A stretch of DNA of 64,000 bases from Methanoculleus frigidifontis (GTDB lineage: Archaea; Halobacteriota; Methanomicrobia; Methanomicrobiales; Methanoculleaceae): positions 1 through 64,000 of the forward strand of contig NZ_VCYH01000004.1 in NCBI RefSeq assembly GCF_030464345.1, read 5' to 3'. Position 1 is the first letter of the stretch; the number at the start of each line of letters is the position of its first letter. The notes beneath the pieces are model-generated. The model ran no database searches, was not told the origin of the DNA, and saw only the letters and a program-made list of their open reading frames with translations. The position numbers were made by a program, and so were the translations under genes. This document shows, one piece after another, positions 15,170 to 23,578 of this stretch.

Positions 15170-15174
15170 ACCCC

Positions 15175-15213
15175 TTCTTTTATCACATTCGCATCAGGGC
15201 TGCAGAGCCTGAT
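15175..15213 (+). terminator. terminator of the ribosomal stalk operon
   Basis: A pyrimidine/T-rich tract begins six bases after the L12 stop, followed by a small hairpin (ATCAGG 15193-15198 with CCTGAT 15208-15213). The position between convergent genes suits a terminator. Confidence 0.45.
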
Positions 15214-15251
15214 ACACCGTAACGAAACATCTTTTCTCCGGCGCGTCCGGT

Positions 15252-15926
15252 TTACTCTTCTTCGATCCAGCCCATCGCGACGTACCAGTCGTACTCGTGG
15301 CGCCAGAGATCCCGATTCGCCGAAACGAGCCGGCGGAAGTACTCGCGCCGCTGCCGGTGGAGCTCCTCCTGCTCGGGATACGTGTGTTCGCCCCGGATCG
15401 ATTCGGCGAGTTTCTTCCCGAGGTTGACGGCCTCTCCTTCTGCCCGCTCGAGCGCAGTCGGGTCCCACCCGACGGCGACGCCGACGCCGCCGACCGCGGT
15501 CGCCCCGAGGGTGGTCAGGACGCGGTTCATGTAGGCGACGACCTCATCCTGGCCGCTCCCACCCGCGGTACAGACGGAGCACCCGAATTTGCCGGTGAGC
15601 ATCTGGCAGTGGATGGCGTCGGCCATGCGGTCGAAGACCGCTTTTAGGGGGGCGGTGACCGAGTCAATATAGTTCGGCGAACCGAGGACGACCCCGTCGG
15701 CGTCGAGGATGTCGTCGAAGAGGTCCGGGAAGTCGTCCATCAGGGGGCAGTCGCCGGTCGCGTAGCAGGAACCGCATGCGGTGCAGTACTCGATGCGGAG
15801 CGTGTAGAGGTCGACGAGCTTTGTCTCTGCCCCTTCCTCCCGGGCGCCTGCGAGGACGGCCTCGACGAGGCGCAGCGTCCTGCTCTCCTCCCCCCGGGGA
15901 CTTGCGTTCAATCCGAGGACTTTCAT
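15252..15926 (-). CDS. Iron-sulfur flavoprotein / NADPH-dependent FMN reductase family
   Basis: 224 aa flavodoxin-fold protein. The start MKVLGLNASPRGEESRT is the FMN phosphate loop, and the compact motif CTACGSCYATGDC (from about residue 48) is the 4Fe-4S site of archaeal Isf proteins. GSPNYIDSVTAPLKAVFDRM is the second FMN loop. Such proteins transfer electrons, possibly from ferredoxin, to oxygen-stress or other acceptors. GGAG lies about ten bases before the ATG and a TATA-like box about 45 bases before. Convergent with the stalk operon. Confidence 0.88.
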   Translation of the reverse strand: MKVLGLNASPRGEESRTLRLVEAVLAGAREEGAETKLVDLYTLRIEYCTACGSCYATGDCPLMDDFPDLFDDILDADGVVLGSPNYIDSVTAPLKAVFDRMADAIHCQMLTGKFGCSVCTAGGSGQDEVVAYMNRVLTTLGATAVGGVGVAVGWDPTALERAEGEAVNLGKKLAESIRGEHTYPEQEELHRQRREYFRRLVSANRDLWRHEYDWYVAMGWIEEE

Positions 15927-15966
15927 GAAGATTGTACTCCTTTACAGGGAGTGAAGGCAGGAGACG

Positions 15967-15974
15967 GATAAAGG
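15967..15974 (-). promoter_or_regulatory. TATA-like box of the flavoprotein gene
   Basis: CCTTTATC on the minus strand lies about 44 bases before the ATG at 15926, predicting a leader of roughly 18 bases that includes the GGAG. Confidence 0.4.
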
Positions 15975-16059
15975 TATCGAACCGGCCAAGAAACGGCTTG
16001 AGCGGCGGGCGGGATCGCCCGGTTTTTCTGTCAGGGAAGAACCGCCCTCATGTGGTGCC

Positions 16060-16767
16060 TCACCGCTTCCTGATCAGAACCAGCAGGACGACGAACGCAG
16101 CAAACGGGGCGTACTGCAGCGGGGCCTGCTGCGTCGCCGCCGCCGGCGTCGGAGCTGCTGCGGCGGTAAACCGGGGGAGCGTCGTGCCGGCCGCCTGAAC
16201 CGTCGCTGACGCCGTGAGGTCAGGCGTCCCGGAACCGCCGGAGGTTCCCGTCGGTTCCGGAGAAGCGGTGGGCGACGGCGTCTGGGCGGTGGTGGGCGTG
16301 CTGCCTGCGGGAGAAGAACCACTCGAACCGGAGGAAGATGCAGTGGTCGTCGGGGCGGCAGTGGTGGCAACGGTCGTGGCCGGTGTCGTCACCGTGGCAT
16401 TCGGTTCTTCGATCTGGACGGCGAGATCCATCCGGGTTATTTCGCCCGGGGCGTAGAGTGCCGTCTGTGAGAACGTGACGCCGTCGACGAGGAACGTGAT
16501 GGCTGCGGGGTCCTCTCCTTCCGCAGCCTGTACGAGCAGCCGGGCGTCGAAAGAACCCGTGCCGCCGTAAACGCCCTCCGCCGACGTGACGAGCCGTCCC
16601 CGCTCCTCGCCCCCGATCGTCGCGGTGATCACGGTCCCGGCCGGCGCGGGATTGCCGTTGACGCTGATGTCGCCGTAGAATTCACACGGAAGAGCGGGTG
16701 CTGCCATGACTGCAGGTATGCAGCCTGCGACGAGCAGCAGGGTCAGGAGAAGGGTTCTATACTGCAT
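16060..16767 (-). CDS. Secreted, C-terminally anchored surface protein
   Basis: 235 aa. A signal peptide (residues 1-22) precedes a beta-sandwich-like domain at about 25-115 that begins FYGDISVNGNPAPAGTVI. A long Thr/Ser/Pro/Gly-rich stalk (about 120-205), likely glycosylated, follows, then a C-terminal hydrophobic helix ending in RKR. That is the layout of an archaeal cell-wall protein anchored at its C-terminus. The globular domain matches the N-terminus of the PKD protein at 21005, so the two share a module. Start ATG chosen because it opens the signal peptide; the in-frame upstream extension crosses the promoter. Function unknown. Confidence 0.75.
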   Translation of the reverse strand: MQYRTLLLTLLLVAGCIPAVMAAPALPCEFYGDISVNGNPAPAGTVITATIGGEERGRLVTSAEGVYGGTGSFDARLLVQAAEGEDPAAITFLVDGVTFSQTALYAPGEITRMDLAVQIEEPNATVTTPATTVATTAAPTTTASSSGSSGSSPAGSTPTTAQTPSPTASPEPTGTSGGSGTPDLTASATVQAAGTTLPRFTAAAAPTPAAATQQAPLQYAPFAAFVVLLVLIRKR

Positions 16768-17322
16768 TCTCAATCGTATAACCGGTATCGCTCTGCCGTA
16801 TATATACCTACCAAAACGCTCCTGGTGCCGGATTTCGCCAAAACACTCCCATGCCGGAGAGCGCGGGGTTTCGGATCGCCGTTCCCGGGACTGTGGCGGC
16901 CCCCCAAAGCACCCTTGCTCCCGACAGTTCCGGCCGGCGGTGTGCACGTTCGCTCCGCAGGTCCCCGGGCGGATCCGAATACCATGAAAAGCGATACGTC
17001 ACTATTTCAGCCCATTGCAGACTGCACCAACCGGGAATGCGTGAGGGACACTCTTCAGGCCGGTTGAAATTTCGAAAGGAATTAATATTTCCGGATGGTA
17101 TTGCATACTATCGAAGCGCACACCGCACCGCACGCCGGCGATCGCGCCGAAACTGTCTCTGCGGAGTTCGCGAGCGATACGGCAGCAGCAGTTCCCCGGG
17201 AAGGTTCTGTTGCAACGCTACGGCTCCGGCGGAAATACTATCAGCATTCTTATCATGATCTTCAGGTTTTTCTTTCCTGCCCTTCCCGCAATAAGTATCC
17301 TCTCTGGAATGGTGAATCATTC
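16768..17322. other. Intergenic region between divergent surface-protein genes
   Basis: 555 bases with no convincing gene. The left end carries the minus-strand promoter of the anchored surface protein. An AT-rich block ATTAATATTT at 17081-17090 may promote the plus-strand surface genes, giving a leader of about 215 bases; GGTGA precedes the ATG at 17323. Open frames here have Arg/Pro-rich, non-coding-like translations. Confidence 0.5.
16797..16810 (-). promoter_or_regulatory. TATA box of the anchored surface protein gene
   Basis: Minus-strand GGTATATATACGG is centred about 37 bases before the ATG at 16767, so the transcript should carry a leader of about ten bases. Confidence 0.6.
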
Positions 17323-18912
17323 ATGAAATCATACCGAATTACATTGAGCATCTGCTGTATTCTCCTGCTGGTGATGGGCCTTCTCTGTGCTCCCGCCGCA
17401 GCGCGAACGGTCTCCGCCGGCAGCACCATCTACGTCGGCGAAGAAGGCCTGGATTTGACCGCGATCGACCCGGGCATTGTCCGACTTGTACATTACAGCG
17501 ACTTTACGGCAGGCGCCGCCGACAATATGATCGATGTTCCGACTGCAAACGACTTTGACCTGAAAGCCGCCGACGTCGGCGGCATCACCGGCACGTACTA
17601 TGCATGGAGCGCGACCGGCATGATCGTTCCTAATGCCTTCATCCTCGTCAAGGAACCGTCCGCAACCCTCGATGTCGTCCTGAACAATTCTCGTTCCGAC
17701 TCGGTGGACGGCAAGACCGTCACCCGGGACACAACACTCGCCTTTGAGATCCAGAACAACGTCGCCGGCCTCTATGCCACTCCTCCGATTGCCTTCATGA
17801 ACATCGAGGTCACCACCCCCTGCGGCGGTACGCTGACCCTGTTCGGCGGGCAAAACCTGTATAATATTCCAATCCAAACCTCCACGATCTACGTCGGCGG
17901 GATAAGCCTCGCCGATGTCGATACCGGAACCTACACCGCACAGGCGAAGTGGGGGCACGGCACCGGCCTGAAAGGCAAGGGATATGATTCGAACACCGTC
18001 AGCTTCGAGGTCAGCGCAGACTCCCTCTCCCTTGCATCCAGCACCGGCAGCGTCACACCCGGCCAGTCCTTCGCCGTGGCCGTTGCCGGTTCGCCGAGGA
18101 CAGCCTACTGGCTCTATGTGAAGGATGCCGGCCTGACCGCCGAGAGTGACTACCCGCTGCTCGCACCCGGCCAGCCGGGAGTGGCGCCCAACGTCGATCT
18201 CCCGGCCGTCGAGGCTGCAAACTACACATATACCAAGGCGTACGTGACGACAACCGCAGACGGAAGCCGCATGGTGCAGTTCAACACCGGCTTTGCCACC
18301 AAGAATCAGACTTTTACGATTAAGGTCGTCAACCCGTCTGACACCTCGTCGTACGATGAGGTTCAGGTACAGGTCGGGGATGACGCTGTCACCACGCCCA
18401 CTCTCGATCTTGCGTCCGGCTGGAACTTCGTCTCGGTCCCAAAACGGCTTGCCGACGGCAATGACAATGCATCCGCGGTCTTCGGGGACGTCGATACGGC
18501 AATGCACTCGATCTTCCGGTATGACGCGGCGACAAAACTCTGGAGCGCTCTTGACGCCAACAGCACGATAGAGCCCCTGAACGGCTACTGGGTCTACGCG
18601 AACACCAGCACCGCCGTCGACCTGATCTTCGCGAGCGGCGGTGCGGCGACACCGCCGTCGAAGACCCTCGCGGCAGGATGGAACGCGATAGGGTTCTCGA
18701 GCACCGTCCCGGCTTCGGCGCACGACGCCCTCTTCTCGGTAGCAGCGGCGTGGACGAACGCCATCGGCTGGGACGCCGACAGCCAGGAGTACGGCCTTGC
18801 GATAGTCAACGGCGGCAGCGGCGCATACAGCGACAGCCGCACCATGGACCCGGGGCAGGGCTACTGGCTCTTCATGACCGAAGGAGGGGAGCTCGCGGCT
18901 CTTACGGGGTGA
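17323..18912 (+). CDS. DUF3821-type secreted surface protein
   Basis: 529 aa secreted protein. The signal peptide (1-25, with CCILLLVMGLLCAPAAA) is followed by a DUF3821-like domain at about 26-115 (VGEEGLDLTAIDPGIVRLVHY). The middle is beta-rich and of unknown fold. The C-terminal 165 residues are a two-part module, each half opening GWN and closing GYW. There is no C-terminal membrane helix, so this module may attach the protein to the envelope. Its DNA is identical over 479 bases to the end of the next gene. The ATG at 17323 has GGTGA upstream. DUF3821 proteins are typical of Methanomicrobiales; role unknown. Confidence 0.8.
   Translation: MKSYRITLSICCILLLVMGLLCAPAAARTVSAGSTIYVGEEGLDLTAIDPGIVRLVHYSDFTAGAADNMIDVPTANDFDLKAADVGGITGTYYAWSATGMIVPNAFILVKEPSATLDVVLNNSRSDSVDGKTVTRDTTLAFEIQNNVAGLYATPPIAFMNIEVTTPCGGTLTLFGGQNLYNIPIQTSTIYVGGISLADVDTGTYTAQAKWGHGTGLKGKGYDSNTVSFEVSADSLSLASSTGSVTPGQSFAVAVAGSPRTAYWLYVKDAGLTAESDYPLLAPGQPGVAPNVDLPAVEAANYTYTKAYVTTTADGSRMVQFNTGFATKNQTFTIKVVNPSDTSSYDEVQVQVGDDAVTTPTLDLASGWNFVSVPKRLADGNDNASAVFGDVDTAMHSIFRYDAATKLWSALDANSTIEPLNGYWVYANTSTAVDLIFASGGAATPPSKTLAAGWNAIGFSSTVPASAHDALFSVAAAWTNAIGWDADSQEYGLAIVNGGSGAYSDSRTMDPGQGYWLFMTEGGELAALTG
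18418..18896 (+). repeat. Direct repeat, copy A (479 bp)
   Basis: Identical base for base to 20509-20987 (offset 2091). It encodes most of the GWN...GYW C-terminal module of the surface protein starting at 17323. Weaker similarity extends a few bases to each side. Confidence 0.95.
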
Positions 18913-19020
18913 TATGGCACGATCCGCATGTCTCCGCCGGATTCTCGAATCCAGGGAGCGTCCACAGCTCCCCCGCTCCTCTCACATGACCGGTACGTAT
19001 TCAGGAATGGTGAACAACCC

Positions 19021-21003
19021 ATGACAGTATATCGAAATTCACTGATCGTCTGCTGTATTCTCCTGCTGGCGATGGCTCTGCTCTGCGCCCCCGCTGCAGC
19101 GCGAACCGTGTATCCCGGCGATACCGTCTCCGTCGGTGAGGAGAACCTCGACCTGACCGGGCTCGACCCGAGCGTCGTCAGCCTCGTCCACTACAGCGAC
19201 TTTGCGGCCGGGTCTGCCGACAACAGCATCGATGTGGCGAACCCCGTTGCGTTCGACCTGACCGAATCCAACATCGGCGGCATTCCCGGTACGTATTATG
19301 CGTGGAACGCGAGCGGGCTGATTGAACCGAGCATTGCTGTTGAGGTTCTGGCGTCCCCCGATGCCGGCCAGGATGACGTCACACCGGCTGAAACCGCCAT
19401 CACGATGACCGCAGAGGGCTCCGGCACCTATGCCCTCGGCGATGAGATCGTGCTCAGCGGCACGTGCACCGACAACATCACGGTGTTTCTCTTCCTGACC
19501 GGCCCGAACCTGGCGATCAACGGTGTTAAACTCCAGGATGTGACGGCCTGCGTCATTGACGGCGACATGACCACGTTTACTGCGGTCGCCGTCGAGGCAG
19601 ACGACACCTGGGAGTACCGGTGGGACACCTCCTGCCTCGGAGCGGTGATGGATCCCGGCAGGTACACGATCTATGCGGAGTCCGAGCTCAGGAATTATAT
19701 GAACCTCGCACAGTATGCAGCAGTGGACGTCGCTCTCGAGGTGCCGACGCTGACCGCCGGAGCGCACCCCGCGTCGGTTGTCCAGGGCGACACGCTTGTC
19801 CTCTCCGGCACCGCGACGGGGAGCCCGGCTAACGTCTATGTCTGGATCTTCGGGCCGAACTTCCGGCTCCTCAGCAATGCCGCAAGCGTTGCAGCGAACG
19901 GCACCTTCGCGTATACGCTCAGTCCGGCCTGGACCGCCAATCTGGCATGGGGCCGGTACAACGCAGTCATCCAGCACCCGATGATAAACGGGATGCAGGA
20001 CGTCTGTATCGTTCCCGGGACACCTGCAACCATCAGTGCGCCCGGCATGACGCCTGTCAACCTGGCATACTTGACGTCATCCGCCGCCAGAGATGCGCTC
20101 ATCAATGCGCTCAACTCGCCTGCAGTCGATGACATCTACGTGGAGATCCCGTTCTGGATCGGCGAACCCTGGATTGTTATTGATCCGATCGGGGATCAGC
20201 TCGCCAACACTTCGTTCCTGATCGACGGCACGACGAACCTGGCCGCCAGTGAGACGCTGAGGGTCGCAATAACGAACGTATCCAACCTCACCGTGGCTTC
20301 AGGAAACGTAACAGTCGGGGAAGGCGAACTGAACAACACGTGGTCGTTCGCGGTCGATGCCGCCTCGCTGGAGATCGGGGAGTATACCGTTACGGTAAAT
20401 TCCACCGTAACGGAGGAATCGGTCTGGAGCGCGGTTTCCCGGAGCGCTGCTTTCCGGGTCGTCGAGAGCATCGTCCCACCGTCTGCCGCCACCCTCGATC
20501 TTGCGCCGGGCTGGAACTTCGTCTCGGTCCCAAAACGGCTTGCCGACGGCAATGACAATGCATCCGCGGTCTTCGGGGACGTCGATACGGCAATGCACTC
20601 GATCTTCCGGTATGACGCGGCGACAAAACTCTGGAGCGCTCTTGACGCCAACAGCACGATAGAGCCCCTGAACGGCTACTGGGTCTACGCGAACACCAGC
20701 ACCGCCGTCGACCTGATCTTCGCGAGCGGCGGTGCGGCGACACCGCCGTCGAAGACCCTCGCGGCAGGATGGAACGCGATAGGGTTCTCGAGCACCGTCC
20801 CGGCTTCGGCGCACGACGCCCTCTTCTCGGTAGCAGCGGCGTGGACGAACGCCATCGGCTGGGACGCCGACAGCCAGGAGTACGGCCTTGCGATAGTCAA
20901 CGGCGGCAGCGGCGCATACAGCGACAGCCGCACCATGGACCCGGGGCAGGGCTACTGGCTCTTCATGACCGAAGGAGGGGAGCTCGCAGCTCTTACGGGA
21001 TAA
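19021..21003 (+). CDS. DUF3821-type secreted surface protein with extra beta domains
   Basis: 660 aa paralogue of the preceding protein. It has a signal peptide (1-25) and a DUF3821-like domain (about 26-110). Next is a domain carrying VFLFLTGPNLAINGVKL and DDTWEYRWDTSC blocks that also occurs in the protein at 21005. A domain with IGEPWIVIDP and LEIGEYTVTVNST resembles part of the protein at 44939. It ends in the duplicated C-terminal module. ATG at 19021 opens the signal peptide, and the bases before it repeat the GGAATGGTGAA context of the previous gene. One base separates its stop from the next ATG, so the two are co-translated. Confidence 0.8.
   Translation: MTVYRNSLIVCCILLLAMALLCAPAAARTVYPGDTVSVGEENLDLTGLDPSVVSLVHYSDFAAGSADNSIDVANPVAFDLTESNIGGIPGTYYAWNASGLIEPSIAVEVLASPDAGQDDVTPAETAITMTAEGSGTYALGDEIVLSGTCTDNITVFLFLTGPNLAINGVKLQDVTACVIDGDMTTFTAVAVEADDTWEYRWDTSCLGAVMDPGRYTIYAESELRNYMNLAQYAAVDVALEVPTLTAGAHPASVVQGDTLVLSGTATGSPANVYVWIFGPNFRLLSNAASVAANGTFAYTLSPAWTANLAWGRYNAVIQHPMINGMQDVCIVPGTPATISAPGMTPVNLAYLTSSAARDALINALNSPAVDDIYVEIPFWIGEPWIVIDPIGDQLANTSFLIDGTTNLAASETLRVAITNVSNLTVASGNVTVGEGELNNTWSFAVDAASLEIGEYTVTVNSTVTEESVWSAVSRSAAFRVVESIVPPSAATLDLAPGWNFVSVPKRLADGNDNASAVFGDVDTAMHSIFRYDAATKLWSALDANSTIEPLNGYWVYANTSTAVDLIFASGGAATPPSKTLAAGWNAIGFSSTVPASAHDALFSVAAAWTNAIGWDADSQEYGLAIVNGGSGAYSDSRTMDPGQGYWLFMTEGGELAALTG
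20509..20987 (+). repeat. Direct repeat, copy B (479 bp)
   Basis: Exact copy of 18418-18896, encoding the C-terminal module of the 19021 protein. The lack of any synonymous difference points to recent duplication or gene conversion. Confidence 0.95.
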
Positions 21004-21004
21004 T

Positions 21005-23521
21005 ATGACAGCACAATCCACAGTCCTCCGCTGGCTTCTGGCGCTCTGCCTGATAACTGTCTGTATTGGCGGGGCTGTTGCCGCGTCTCCCCCGCCCCTC
21101 CCATCCGCGTTCTACGGTGACGTCAGCATCAACGGCAATCCCGCACCGGCCGGAACGGTCATCGCCGCACTCATCGACGGCACGGAAAAGGGTTCCCTGA
21201 CCACGACCGCATCCGGCACGTACGGCGGAAACGAGACATGGGACTTGAAACTGCTTGTCCAGGGAACCGAAGCCGATCTGGGACAGACGATAACGTTCCG
21301 GGTGGGCGGCGCCGCAGCGAACGAACAGAGCACGTACACCGCGGGAGCGATCCAGAGATGTGATCTCTCCGTCGATATCGTCACCGCGAACTTCACCGCC
21401 AATGTCACCTCCGGCACCGCCCCCCTGACCGTGCAGTTCACCGACACCTCCACCGGCGACCCGGCAACGTGGAACTGGACGTTCGGCGACGGCGGCACCG
21501 CGACCGAGCAGAACCCGGTCCACACTTACACCGCGGCCGGCAACTACACCATCTCGCTCACGGCGTCGAAAGACAATGCAAACGGTACGGTGACGAAGGA
21601 GCAGTACATCCGGGTGCAGCAGCTGCTCCCGGCCGGCCGGCTCATCTTCAACGTCAACTACAACCGGGGCACGGCGAACGACAGCATCGCAGCCGGTACA
21701 TCCCCCTGCCAACTGGTGTACTTTGCGGGCGTCGCCAACGCCGCAGACAGCCAGAAGAGCATCAGCGGGAACCTCTCGTTCGCCCTCGACGCACCGTCGA
21801 TCGTCGCGCTCATCCCCGATACCTGCGCCGAGCTCAACGGGACACGGGCAACCTGGCACTTCCCCCCCGCCACCACGATCGACCCGGGCGCGACGCTGGC
21901 GACCACGGCACTGACCTCGGTGTTGACACCCCGGACGTCCGGCGTGACCATGGAGCGGGTCTGCAACAGGACGACCTTCACCGAGGCAGGTGCACAGCAG
22001 GTCACCCTGCAGATGACCTTCGCCACCGTGGACCTCGACGGCCTCTGGGGCAGGCTTGACTGCACCGAGACCGTCGACGTCCGGCCCGCATTCGTCCCGG
22101 AGACCGTCTCAACCGATCTTCCGCTCCTCTCGATCACAAAGAAGAGCGGGCGCATCGAGTTCGTCATCGATCACACACAGGTCGAGGCCGGCCGGCAGTA
22201 TACTCTCTCCTGCGCAGTGGCGGTCGACCCCATCCACCCGGCGACCTATGCACCGACCTGTGCGGTCTGGGAGGTCACTGACGCAGCATCCGCAACTGCA
22301 GAGGCCGGAACCACAGTAACGCTCCCGGCGGCGCTCCGCCCGGAGAACGTCAGCACCGTTGCGTTCTCCTCAGACACACCCTGCCGGTGGTCGTGCAGCC
22401 GTAACGACCACATCATCACCAGCCTTATCCAGCGCGCCGTCCCGATCCCGGCGCCGGTCGCGAACTTCACCGCCAATGTCACCGCAGGAATAAGGCCGCT
22501 CACCGTGCAGTTCACCGACACCTCCACCGGCGAGCCGACCTTCTGGTCGTGGTCGTTCGGCGACGGCGAGACCTCCTCCGAGCAGAACCCGGTCCACACC
22601 TACACCGCGGCCGGTGCCTACACGGTGAACCTGACGGTGACGAACGCCGCCGGCACCGATGCAACGTCCGTGCCGGGGTATATCACCGTCGAACGCGGGA
22701 CGGTCAGCATCACGGCTCCGGGAGGCGGCAGTGCGACCATCGGTGATGCGATCACTCTCACCGGGACGAACACCGACAGCACGACAACCTACCTCTTCCT
22801 GACCGGGCCCGGGCTGCCGCTGGCGGGTGCCAACCTCATGAACCTCTCGATGCCCGTGGTGAGCGGCAGCGCCGCGACGTTCACCGTCGCCGCCGTCGCG
22901 GTCGACGACACCTGGGAGCATTGCTGGGACACCGGGGCGGTCTGGGGCGGCGCCCTGCAGGAAGGCGTGTATACCGTCTACGCCGTCTCGGAACCGAAAT
23001 CACGGACTGACCTTGCCGGCATCCCGCATGCAACCGTCGCCATACGGTTCGCCGTTCCCGGGCAGTCGAACGCATCCTTCGTCGCGGACGTGACGGGCGG
23101 CCCTGCCCCGCTCACGGTTCGGTTCACCGACACCTCGTCGATCAGCGCGACCTCCTGGTCGTGGACGTTCGGCGACGGCGGCACTTCGACCGCACAGAAT
23201 CCGGTGCACACCTACGCGGCAGCGGGCAACTACACCGTCGCGCTCACGCTCAACGGCGGCGGCGAGACCTGCACGCGATCTGCATACATCAAGGTCACGC
23301 CGATCCTCTTCGGGGACGCGAACGGGGACGGTGCGGTCAACCAGGCCGACACGCTCCGGGTGCTCAAAGAGGTCGTCGGCCTTGAGACAAAACCGGCGAG
23401 CGGCACCGAACAGTTCCAAAAGACCGACGTCCACAGAAACGGGATCATCGAGGTCGGCGACGCCCTCTTCATCGCCCAGTACAACGTCGGGCTGCGGGAC
23501 GTCTGGTTTACCCTCATCTAA
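21005..23521 (+). CDS. Secreted PKD-repeat protein with C-terminal dockerin-like domain
   Basis: 838 aa. Signal peptide (1-27) and a FYGDVSINGNPAPAGT domain (about 34-122, shared with the 16060 protein) come first. PKD domain 1 (126-203) carries the WTFGDGG and NPVHTY hallmarks. A cysteine-containing beta region of unknown type follows (about 207-480). PKD 2 (485-565), the LFLTGPGLPL domain shared with the 19021 protein, and PKD 3 (about 689-762) lead to a dockerin-like pair (about 767-832; GDANGDGAVNQADTLRVLK and DVHRNGIIEVGDALFIAQ). PKD and dockerin modules usually mediate adhesion and calcium-dependent docking. No cohesin was recognised in the window. Confidence 0.85.
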   Translation: MTAQSTVLRWLLALCLITVCIGGAVAASPPPLPSAFYGDVSINGNPAPAGTVIAALIDGTEKGSLTTTASGTYGGNETWDLKLLVQGTEADLGQTITFRVGGAAANEQSTYTAGAIQRCDLSVDIVTANFTANVTSGTAPLTVQFTDTSTGDPATWNWTFGDGGTATEQNPVHTYTAAGNYTISLTASKDNANGTVTKEQYIRVQQLLPAGRLIFNVNYNRGTANDSIAAGTSPCQLVYFAGVANAADSQKSISGNLSFALDAPSIVALIPDTCAELNGTRATWHFPPATTIDPGATLATTALTSVLTPRTSGVTMERVCNRTTFTEAGAQQVTLQMTFATVDLDGLWGRLDCTETVDVRPAFVPETVSTDLPLLSITKKSGRIEFVIDHTQVEAGRQYTLSCAVAVDPIHPATYAPTCAVWEVTDAASATAEAGTTVTLPAALRPENVSTVAFSSDTPCRWSCSRNDHIITSLIQRAVPIPAPVANFTANVTAGIRPLTVQFTDTSTGEPTFWSWSFGDGETSSEQNPVHTYTAAGAYTVNLTVTNAAGTDATSVPGYITVERGTVSITAPGGGSATIGDAITLTGTNTDSTTTYLFLTGPGLPLAGANLMNLSMPVVSGSAATFTVAAVAVDDTWEHCWDTGAVWGGALQEGVYTVYAVSEPKSRTDLAGIPHATVAIRFAVPGQSNASFVADVTGGPAPLTVRFTDTSSISATSWSWTFGDGGTSTAQNPVHTYAAAGNYTVALTLNGGGETCTRSAYIKVTPILFGDANGDGAVNQADTLRVLKEVVGLETKPASGTEQFQKTDVHRNGIIEVGDALFIAQYNVGLRDVWFTLI

Positions 23522-23523
23522 CG

Positions 23524-23547
23524 AAAAATAGTCCTTTTTTCTCTTTT
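23524..23547. terminator. bidirectional A/T-run terminator
   Basis: Between the convergent PKD-protein gene and hypF lie A5 and then T6 plus T4 runs, so both strands read through an oligo-T signal just after their stops. Confidence 0.55.
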
Positions 23548-23578
23548 GTGCGGCCGCACCAGTCCGGTGGAAGGGTCT

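Follow-up and report, generated by a model that had tools for sequence, protein, structure and literature searches.

Results

Two S-layer paralogues that end in the same module

We analyzed a window of 64,000 nucleotides of Methanoculleus frigidifontis DNA, in which an interval of surface-protein genes (15170–23578) lies between the gene for ribosomal protein L12 and hypF. Gene A (17323–18912, + strand) encodes 529 aa: a signal peptide, the N-terminal half of an S-layer protein and a C-terminal module of ~167 aa that we call MOD (18398–18912, + strand). Gene B (19021–21003, + strand) encodes 660 aa: a signal peptide, S-layer residues 1–109 and 325–699 and a second MOD (20489–21003, + strand). 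A third gene (21005–23521, + strand) starts one base after the gene B stop. Its 838-aa product carries a signal peptide, a domain that we call FY after its FYGDV start (E = 1.9e-36), PKD domains (178 bits) and a C-terminal type I dockerin (Dockerin_1, 23.7 bits; cut-off 22.9). This N-terminal FY domain, a 95-aa β-sandwich, maps to 21086–21370 (+ strand) by profile match and structural model; the earlier note on this DNA had not noticed the downstream partner.

Another FY gene (16060–16767, − strand) is transcribed away from gene A. It encodes 235 aa: a signal peptide, FY (16420–16704; E = 9.9e-35), a Ser/Thr/Pro-rich linker and a C-terminal hydrophobic stretch followed by RKR. A Pfam/NCBIfam scan of this protein gave no match. 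Its homologue in the sister species G001 (58% identical) is encoded at the syntenic locus, where its gene comes immediately after a module gene, and we consider the product a candidate membrane-anchored partner. At the border of the interval, the ends of the ribosomal P0 (14668–14820) and L12 (15021–15173) genes are 76% identical and encode an acidic C-terminus (EEEKEE...); such a common acidic end of P0 and L12 is a known archaeal feature.

We compared proteins A and B by blastp with C17, the canonical S-layer glycoprotein encoded in this genome. Protein A matched residues 1–354 (58% identity) and protein B matched the two segments given above. Both contain the N-terminal DUF3821 domain (63 bits in A, 33 bits in B; cut-off 23). 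The S-layer glycoprotein model NF041431 (MEMAR_RS02690) scored 952 bits with C17 and 802 bits with a third paralogue, C2, both above the curated cut-off of 600 bits, which was reached neither by A (226 bits, positions 7–394) nor by B (392 bits). As judged from these matches, A and B are S-layer paralogues. C2 follows residues 1–710 of the canonical protein at 64% and then ends in MOD. The canonical protein itself ends in a spacer and a PGF-CTERM (29 bits; cut-off 18.8). Thus, in A, B and C2, MOD occupies the place of a known membrane anchor. No C-terminal anchor was found in A or B, which stop 2 aa past the matched domain, in line with the earlier note's remark that neither protein has a membrane anchor.

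Evidence for gene conversion between the two modules

The modules of A and B had been described as sharing 479 bp of perfect identity. Comparison of both copies recovered exactly this maximal block, at 18418–18896 and 20509–20987 (both + strand). The tract is embedded in the longer homologous module (~515 bp), in which the two genes differ only at 18402, 18415, 18417, 18897, 18909 and 18911: there are no mismatches in the 479 positions of the tract versus 6/36 at the two module edges (Fisher p = 7.7e-8). Between A and B, 1/95 four-fold sites differ, versus 35/68 and 27/67 when they are compared with the other two close copies of the genome; these other close copies have ~75% DNA identity. Outside the module, only the first ~322 nt can be aligned as DNA (73.6%), confirming that the rest of the two genes has strongly diverged. 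A recent whole-gene duplication was rejected, as near-identity is confined to the module.

Behind gene A, we found a remnant of an FY-gene start (18913–18945, + strand), recognized by local alignment with 21004–21039. Its ATG lies one base past the stop, as behind gene B, and its alignment score was reached by none of 5000 shuffles and none of 4241 window controls. The resemblance of this remnant to the start of an FY gene suggests that the original duplicated unit extended into the next gene. The mismatches are restricted to the edges and the remnant has diverged, so both modules must be older than the identical tract. This is the pattern expected from gene conversion, which is thus well supported by the sequence comparison, as the earlier note had proposed.

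A recent duplication of the module or an assembly artefact could also yield perfect identity, and the genome is indeed a draft of 30 contigs. We nevertheless regard this as very unlikely: mismatches sit at both edges within the homologous module, which makes an assembly error improbable, the diverged remnant behind A implies that the copies predate the tract, and a milder module-confined identity (93%) occurs in a single-contig genome (G013). The alternative raised by the earlier note, that selection keeps the end constant, fails as a general rule, since the remaining full-length close copies of the M. frigidifontis genome share only 46–70% protein identity.

MOD is an undescribed domain

The M. 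frigidifontis genome contains 8 copies of MOD, counting two divergent ones. A search beyond this genome, which the earlier note had suggested, found MOD in 34/40 genomes of the family and in 126 of the 393 genomes sampled from the phylum (E ≤ 1e-10). Strong copies come mainly from Methanomicrobiales, and other orders and Dehalococcoidia have a few. The N-terminal parts do vary, and the cargo is unrelated: DUF3821 S-layer proteins, NHL propellers, Oxidored_molyb (molybdopterin-binding)/DUF4430, fasciclin, PEGA, PKD, CUB, NosD, DUF3344 and CARDB. A general link of MOD to the absence of peptidoglycan was considered and abandoned, as Chloroflexota rarely have copies (4/400 genomes at E ≤ 1e-15).

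The module of gene A consists of two GWN...GYW halves. Residues G7, N9, L60, G93, W94 and W118 are invariant and the motifs are rich in Trp, Tyr and Asn. The AlphaFold (AF2) model is confident (pLDDT 96.4, pTM 0.91) and β-rich. The two halves, whose GWN starts and GYW ends had been pointed out before, proved homologous to each other: hhalign gave a probability of 96.9% (E = 1.5e-10) and a score of 54.6, versus 17.3 at most in 20 column shuffles. Scans of 48 members revealed no consistent Pfam family (best E 0.016; SLH, wall-binding, CBM and lectin families included) and no CTERM, type IX or other sorting-domain match in NCBIfam. A PDB sequence search returned nothing consistent, and Foldseek of the model found no PDB match at E ≤ 1e-3. 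MOD is therefore an undescribed domain: no Pfam, NCBIfam or PDB relative was found. Against BFVD, the model gave one fold match, A0A8D9C8P8 (E 7.6e-5, TMq 0.56), a 587-aa protein of an uncultured marine phage annotated as hemin-binding; its meaning for MOD is unclear.

We scored the position of MOD in 91 distinct proteins with complete 5′ ends. In 79/91, no more than 5 aa separated the end of the module from the stop. Internal modules, which the earlier note saw as speaking against an attachment tag, form only a minority, with >80 aa behind MOD in 6/91. The same note had viewed cytosolic carriers in this light; none was identified, and 83/91 proteins have a signal-like hydrophobic N-terminus (export signals and transmembrane (TM) helices were called by hydropathy and not by a trained predictor). 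In L066, L067 and L068, variant modules come right after the signal peptide, with ~80 PEGA-like aa behind them, which reverses the usual order.

The extreme C-terminal position, the uniform ~2-residue tail and the unrelated cargo would suit a signal for secretion or sorting that, like those of type IX secretion or the CTERM systems, is read by an export or processing machinery. We find this improbable: MOD is a folded domain of 167 aa rather than a tripartite motif, no member matches an NCBIfam sorting domain, most carriers already have Sec-type signals and a few modules are internal. The PGF/PEF motif is also absent from the last 80 aa of MOD proteins.

FY genes often follow MOD genes

FY is a second undescribed domain, N-terminal in its carriers, with a confident model (pLDDT 96.7). 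Pfam, NCBIfam and PDB sequence searches with FY gave no consistent match, and Foldseek found only weak fold matches, including the C-terminal domain of the PapC usher and SlaB (SlaB E 0.14).

An FY gene lies directly downstream of 63/111 MOD genes, on the same strand in all 63 cases, and its start codon mostly falls between 2 bp inside and 30 bp past the MOD stop. Conversely, 60 of the 73 FY domains in the 40 genomes are encoded straight after a MOD gene, and in no case does FY directly precede one; the chance of FY lying directly behind MOD is ~0.07% per domain. The arrangement is thus C-to-N: the C-terminal MOD is encoded upstream and the N-terminal FY in the next gene, on the same strand. 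Outside the family, 49 of the 131 FY matches listed, and 39 of the best 60, lie directly behind MOD, and 33 of the 131 matches listed fall in genomes that have no listed module. The order of FY and MOD is kept in two Dehalococcoidia contigs (L049, L050). This order is the archaeal one, which suggests transfer of the whole pair or, alternatively, a MAG binning error.

No FY lies directly downstream of the remaining 48/111 MOD genes, and 11/40 genomes have MOD with no detected FY. A subclade of solitary MOD proteins (L038 and the LQLYEGWNF clade, L094–L172 in part) comprises fasciclin/DUF4430/DUF7282 proteins, at about one per genome and never beside FY. In L143, L145, L147 and L099, the FY genes behind intact MOD look truncated or frameshifted and may be decaying partners.

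Within genomes, MOD distances correlate with the distances of the FY partners (r = 0.82; null 0.21; 0/5000 permutations). By this measure, MOD–FY pairs are inherited together, although operon linkage alone could also produce the correlation.

A glycan-binding role has to be weighed here: MOD would be a lectin-like binder of the glycosylated S-layer or of extracellular polysaccharide, and FY another surface domain of the operon that does not bind MOD. The Trp/Tyr/Asn-rich motifs, the β-rich fold and the fact that nearly half of the MOD genes lack an adjacent FY would fit such a role. Yet the 48 members scanned had no consistent CBM or lectin match in Pfam, the PDB fold search was empty at its threshold and glycan binding leaves the strict order of MOD and FY genes unexplained. 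We give it a small but real chance.

FY proteins carry anchors, dockerins and fusions

What could hold FY proteins at the cell? In 35 of the 52 complete FY partners, hydropathy indicated a C-terminal hydrophobic TM helix followed by a K/R tail. None of the curated CTERM models passed its cut-off with the C-termini of FY proteins. About 11 of the 52 FY proteins have a dockerin-like repeat at their end: a pattern identified six, and sequence or Pfam five more; besides the partner of gene B, Dockerin_1 matched L069 (25.1 bits), and two others fell just below the cut-off. Neither MOD nor the FY domain itself matched the cohesin or dockerin models. A cohesin was suspected from sequence in the 306-aa C6 protein, and this candidate was rejected as it had no Pfam support.

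Three proteins contain both domains, with FY before MOD every time. In the L052 operon, a MOD gene is followed by a gene for FY, S-layer and MOD and then by one for FY and a TM helix, a series that could possibly encode a chain of docked proteins.

Alternatively, MOD and FY may only co-occur in surface-protein operons, spread by domain shuffling and with no common docking role. Both are found in multi-domain surface proteins, and linkage alone could give the correlated trees. This we think distinctly improbable, given that the two domains occupy complementary termini (C-terminal upstream, N-terminal downstream), that the anchors are located on the FY proteins, that the fusions are invariably ordered FY to MOD and that the pair is kept in Dehalococcoidia.

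Neighboring modules are homogenized elsewhere

Raised identity between adjacent MOD genes is found in other genomes. In G013 it is restricted to the module, while in G019.C15 (92%) and G018.C70 (88.5%) it spills over a little, into the PKD domain before the module or into the 3′ flank. Non-neighboring copies in one genome typically share 50–82% identity. Each of the four most homogenized neighbor pairs (99, 93, 92 and 88.5%) consists of one gene with its own FY and one without; neighbors that each own an FY are mostly 62–79% identical. Homogenization is thus plausibly tied to a shared FY partner, a post hoc link drawn from few cases and with counterexamples (G020.C4, 57%; L059 and L062, 52–56%).

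Discussion

A proposed docking role for MOD and FY

FY proteins carry a retention device that MOD proteins lack. We therefore lean towards the view that MOD serves as a docking domain: placed at the C-terminus of an exported protein, it would bind the N-terminal FY of a partner and so keep its carrier on the surface of the archaeal cell. The gene for this partner would usually be the next one, and the partner would itself be held by its C-terminal membrane anchor or dockerin. In the S-layer paralogues A, B and C2, MOD would replace the usual PGF-CTERM lipid anchor. MOD and the FY gene would form a cassette, and the N-terminal domains preceding it would be exchanged for unrelated ones. In the window, we suggest that the cassette was duplicated and that gene A then lost its own FY gene, leaving the ~33-bp remnant. 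Gene conversion would have homogenized the two modules, plausibly since both must fit the same partner: A and B would share the FY protein encoded at 21005–23521 and perhaps also the FY-TM protein encoded at 16060–16767. Linkage alone could explain joint inheritance, so the physical binding of MOD to FY is inferred, as are retention at the surface and selection for compatible partners.

The earlier note had proposed an envelope attachment tag common to different displayed domains. The support for this idea is indirect and comes from the C-terminal position, the export signals, the varied cargo, the replacement of PGF-CTERM and the anchored partner encoded directly behind.

A broader scheme, which we entertain seriously but do not quite expect to hold in full, is an extracellular collinear docking code in Methanomicrobiales and relatives. 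MOD would dock on the FY of the next-encoded protein, FY...MOD proteins would extend the chain and the last FY protein would anchor in the membrane or pass the chain to a cohesin, with gene conversion keeping tandem modules matched to their shared partner.

How anchor-less archaeal surface proteins are retained on the cell is poorly understood. MOD and FY, two undescribed domains with confident models and no close solved relative found, occur together in dozens of genomes; they would offer an answer that is concrete and cheap to test, a route to annotating hundreds of hypothetical surface proteins and possibly a display tag for methanogens.

Comparison with known systems

In polyketide synthases and nonribosomal peptide synthetases (PKS/NRPS), a docking domain at the C-terminus of one protein pairs with one at the N-terminus of the protein encoded next, collinearly and with possible chains. 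MOD and FY resemble this C-to-N docking in their termini, their collinear order and their possible chains, but they are extracellular, larger folded domains with no sequence relation to it.

Archaeal S-layer glycoproteins are anchored by the PGF-CTERM/archaeosortase system (PF18204; Mhun_2263 in M. hungatei, PMC11641113). Like PGF-CTERM, MOD is a C-terminal element of S-layer and other exported proteins, in the same place in paralogues. However, PGF-CTERM is a short motif with a TM helix and a basic tail, whereas MOD is folded, has none of these and goes together with an FY domain on another protein. For M. hungatei, 14 S-layer paralogues are described as having unknown structural roles (PMC11641113).

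The docking that we propose would be modular and non-covalent and would serve varied exported proteins, in which it recalls the archaeal cohesin–dockerin system (PMC9012536); some FY partners end in dockerins. Yet MOD and FY match neither model and form a collinear, adjacent pair. The Sulfolobus S-layer likewise combines a surface subunit, SlaA, with a separate membrane-anchored subunit, SlaB (PMC10903991). In this case, no sequence relation was found, FY and SlaB being linked by the weak Foldseek match only, and MOD has many cargo types.

The VARTIG modules of Thermococcales (PMC8416519) also comprise a recombining Ig-rich surface gene with variable genes downstream. In VARTIG it is the C-terminal Ig region that is hypervariable, whereas here the C-terminal MOD is shared and the N-terminal cargo varies. 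The interval between the L12 gene and hypF varies within the family, from 0.15 to ~13 kb, with differing S-layer, PKD-dockerin or MOD/FY genes between the conserved neighbors. G037 has ~0.2 kb here and G020 has ~11 kb. The ~13 kb of the sister species G001 hold three MOD genes, with an FY gene behind each.
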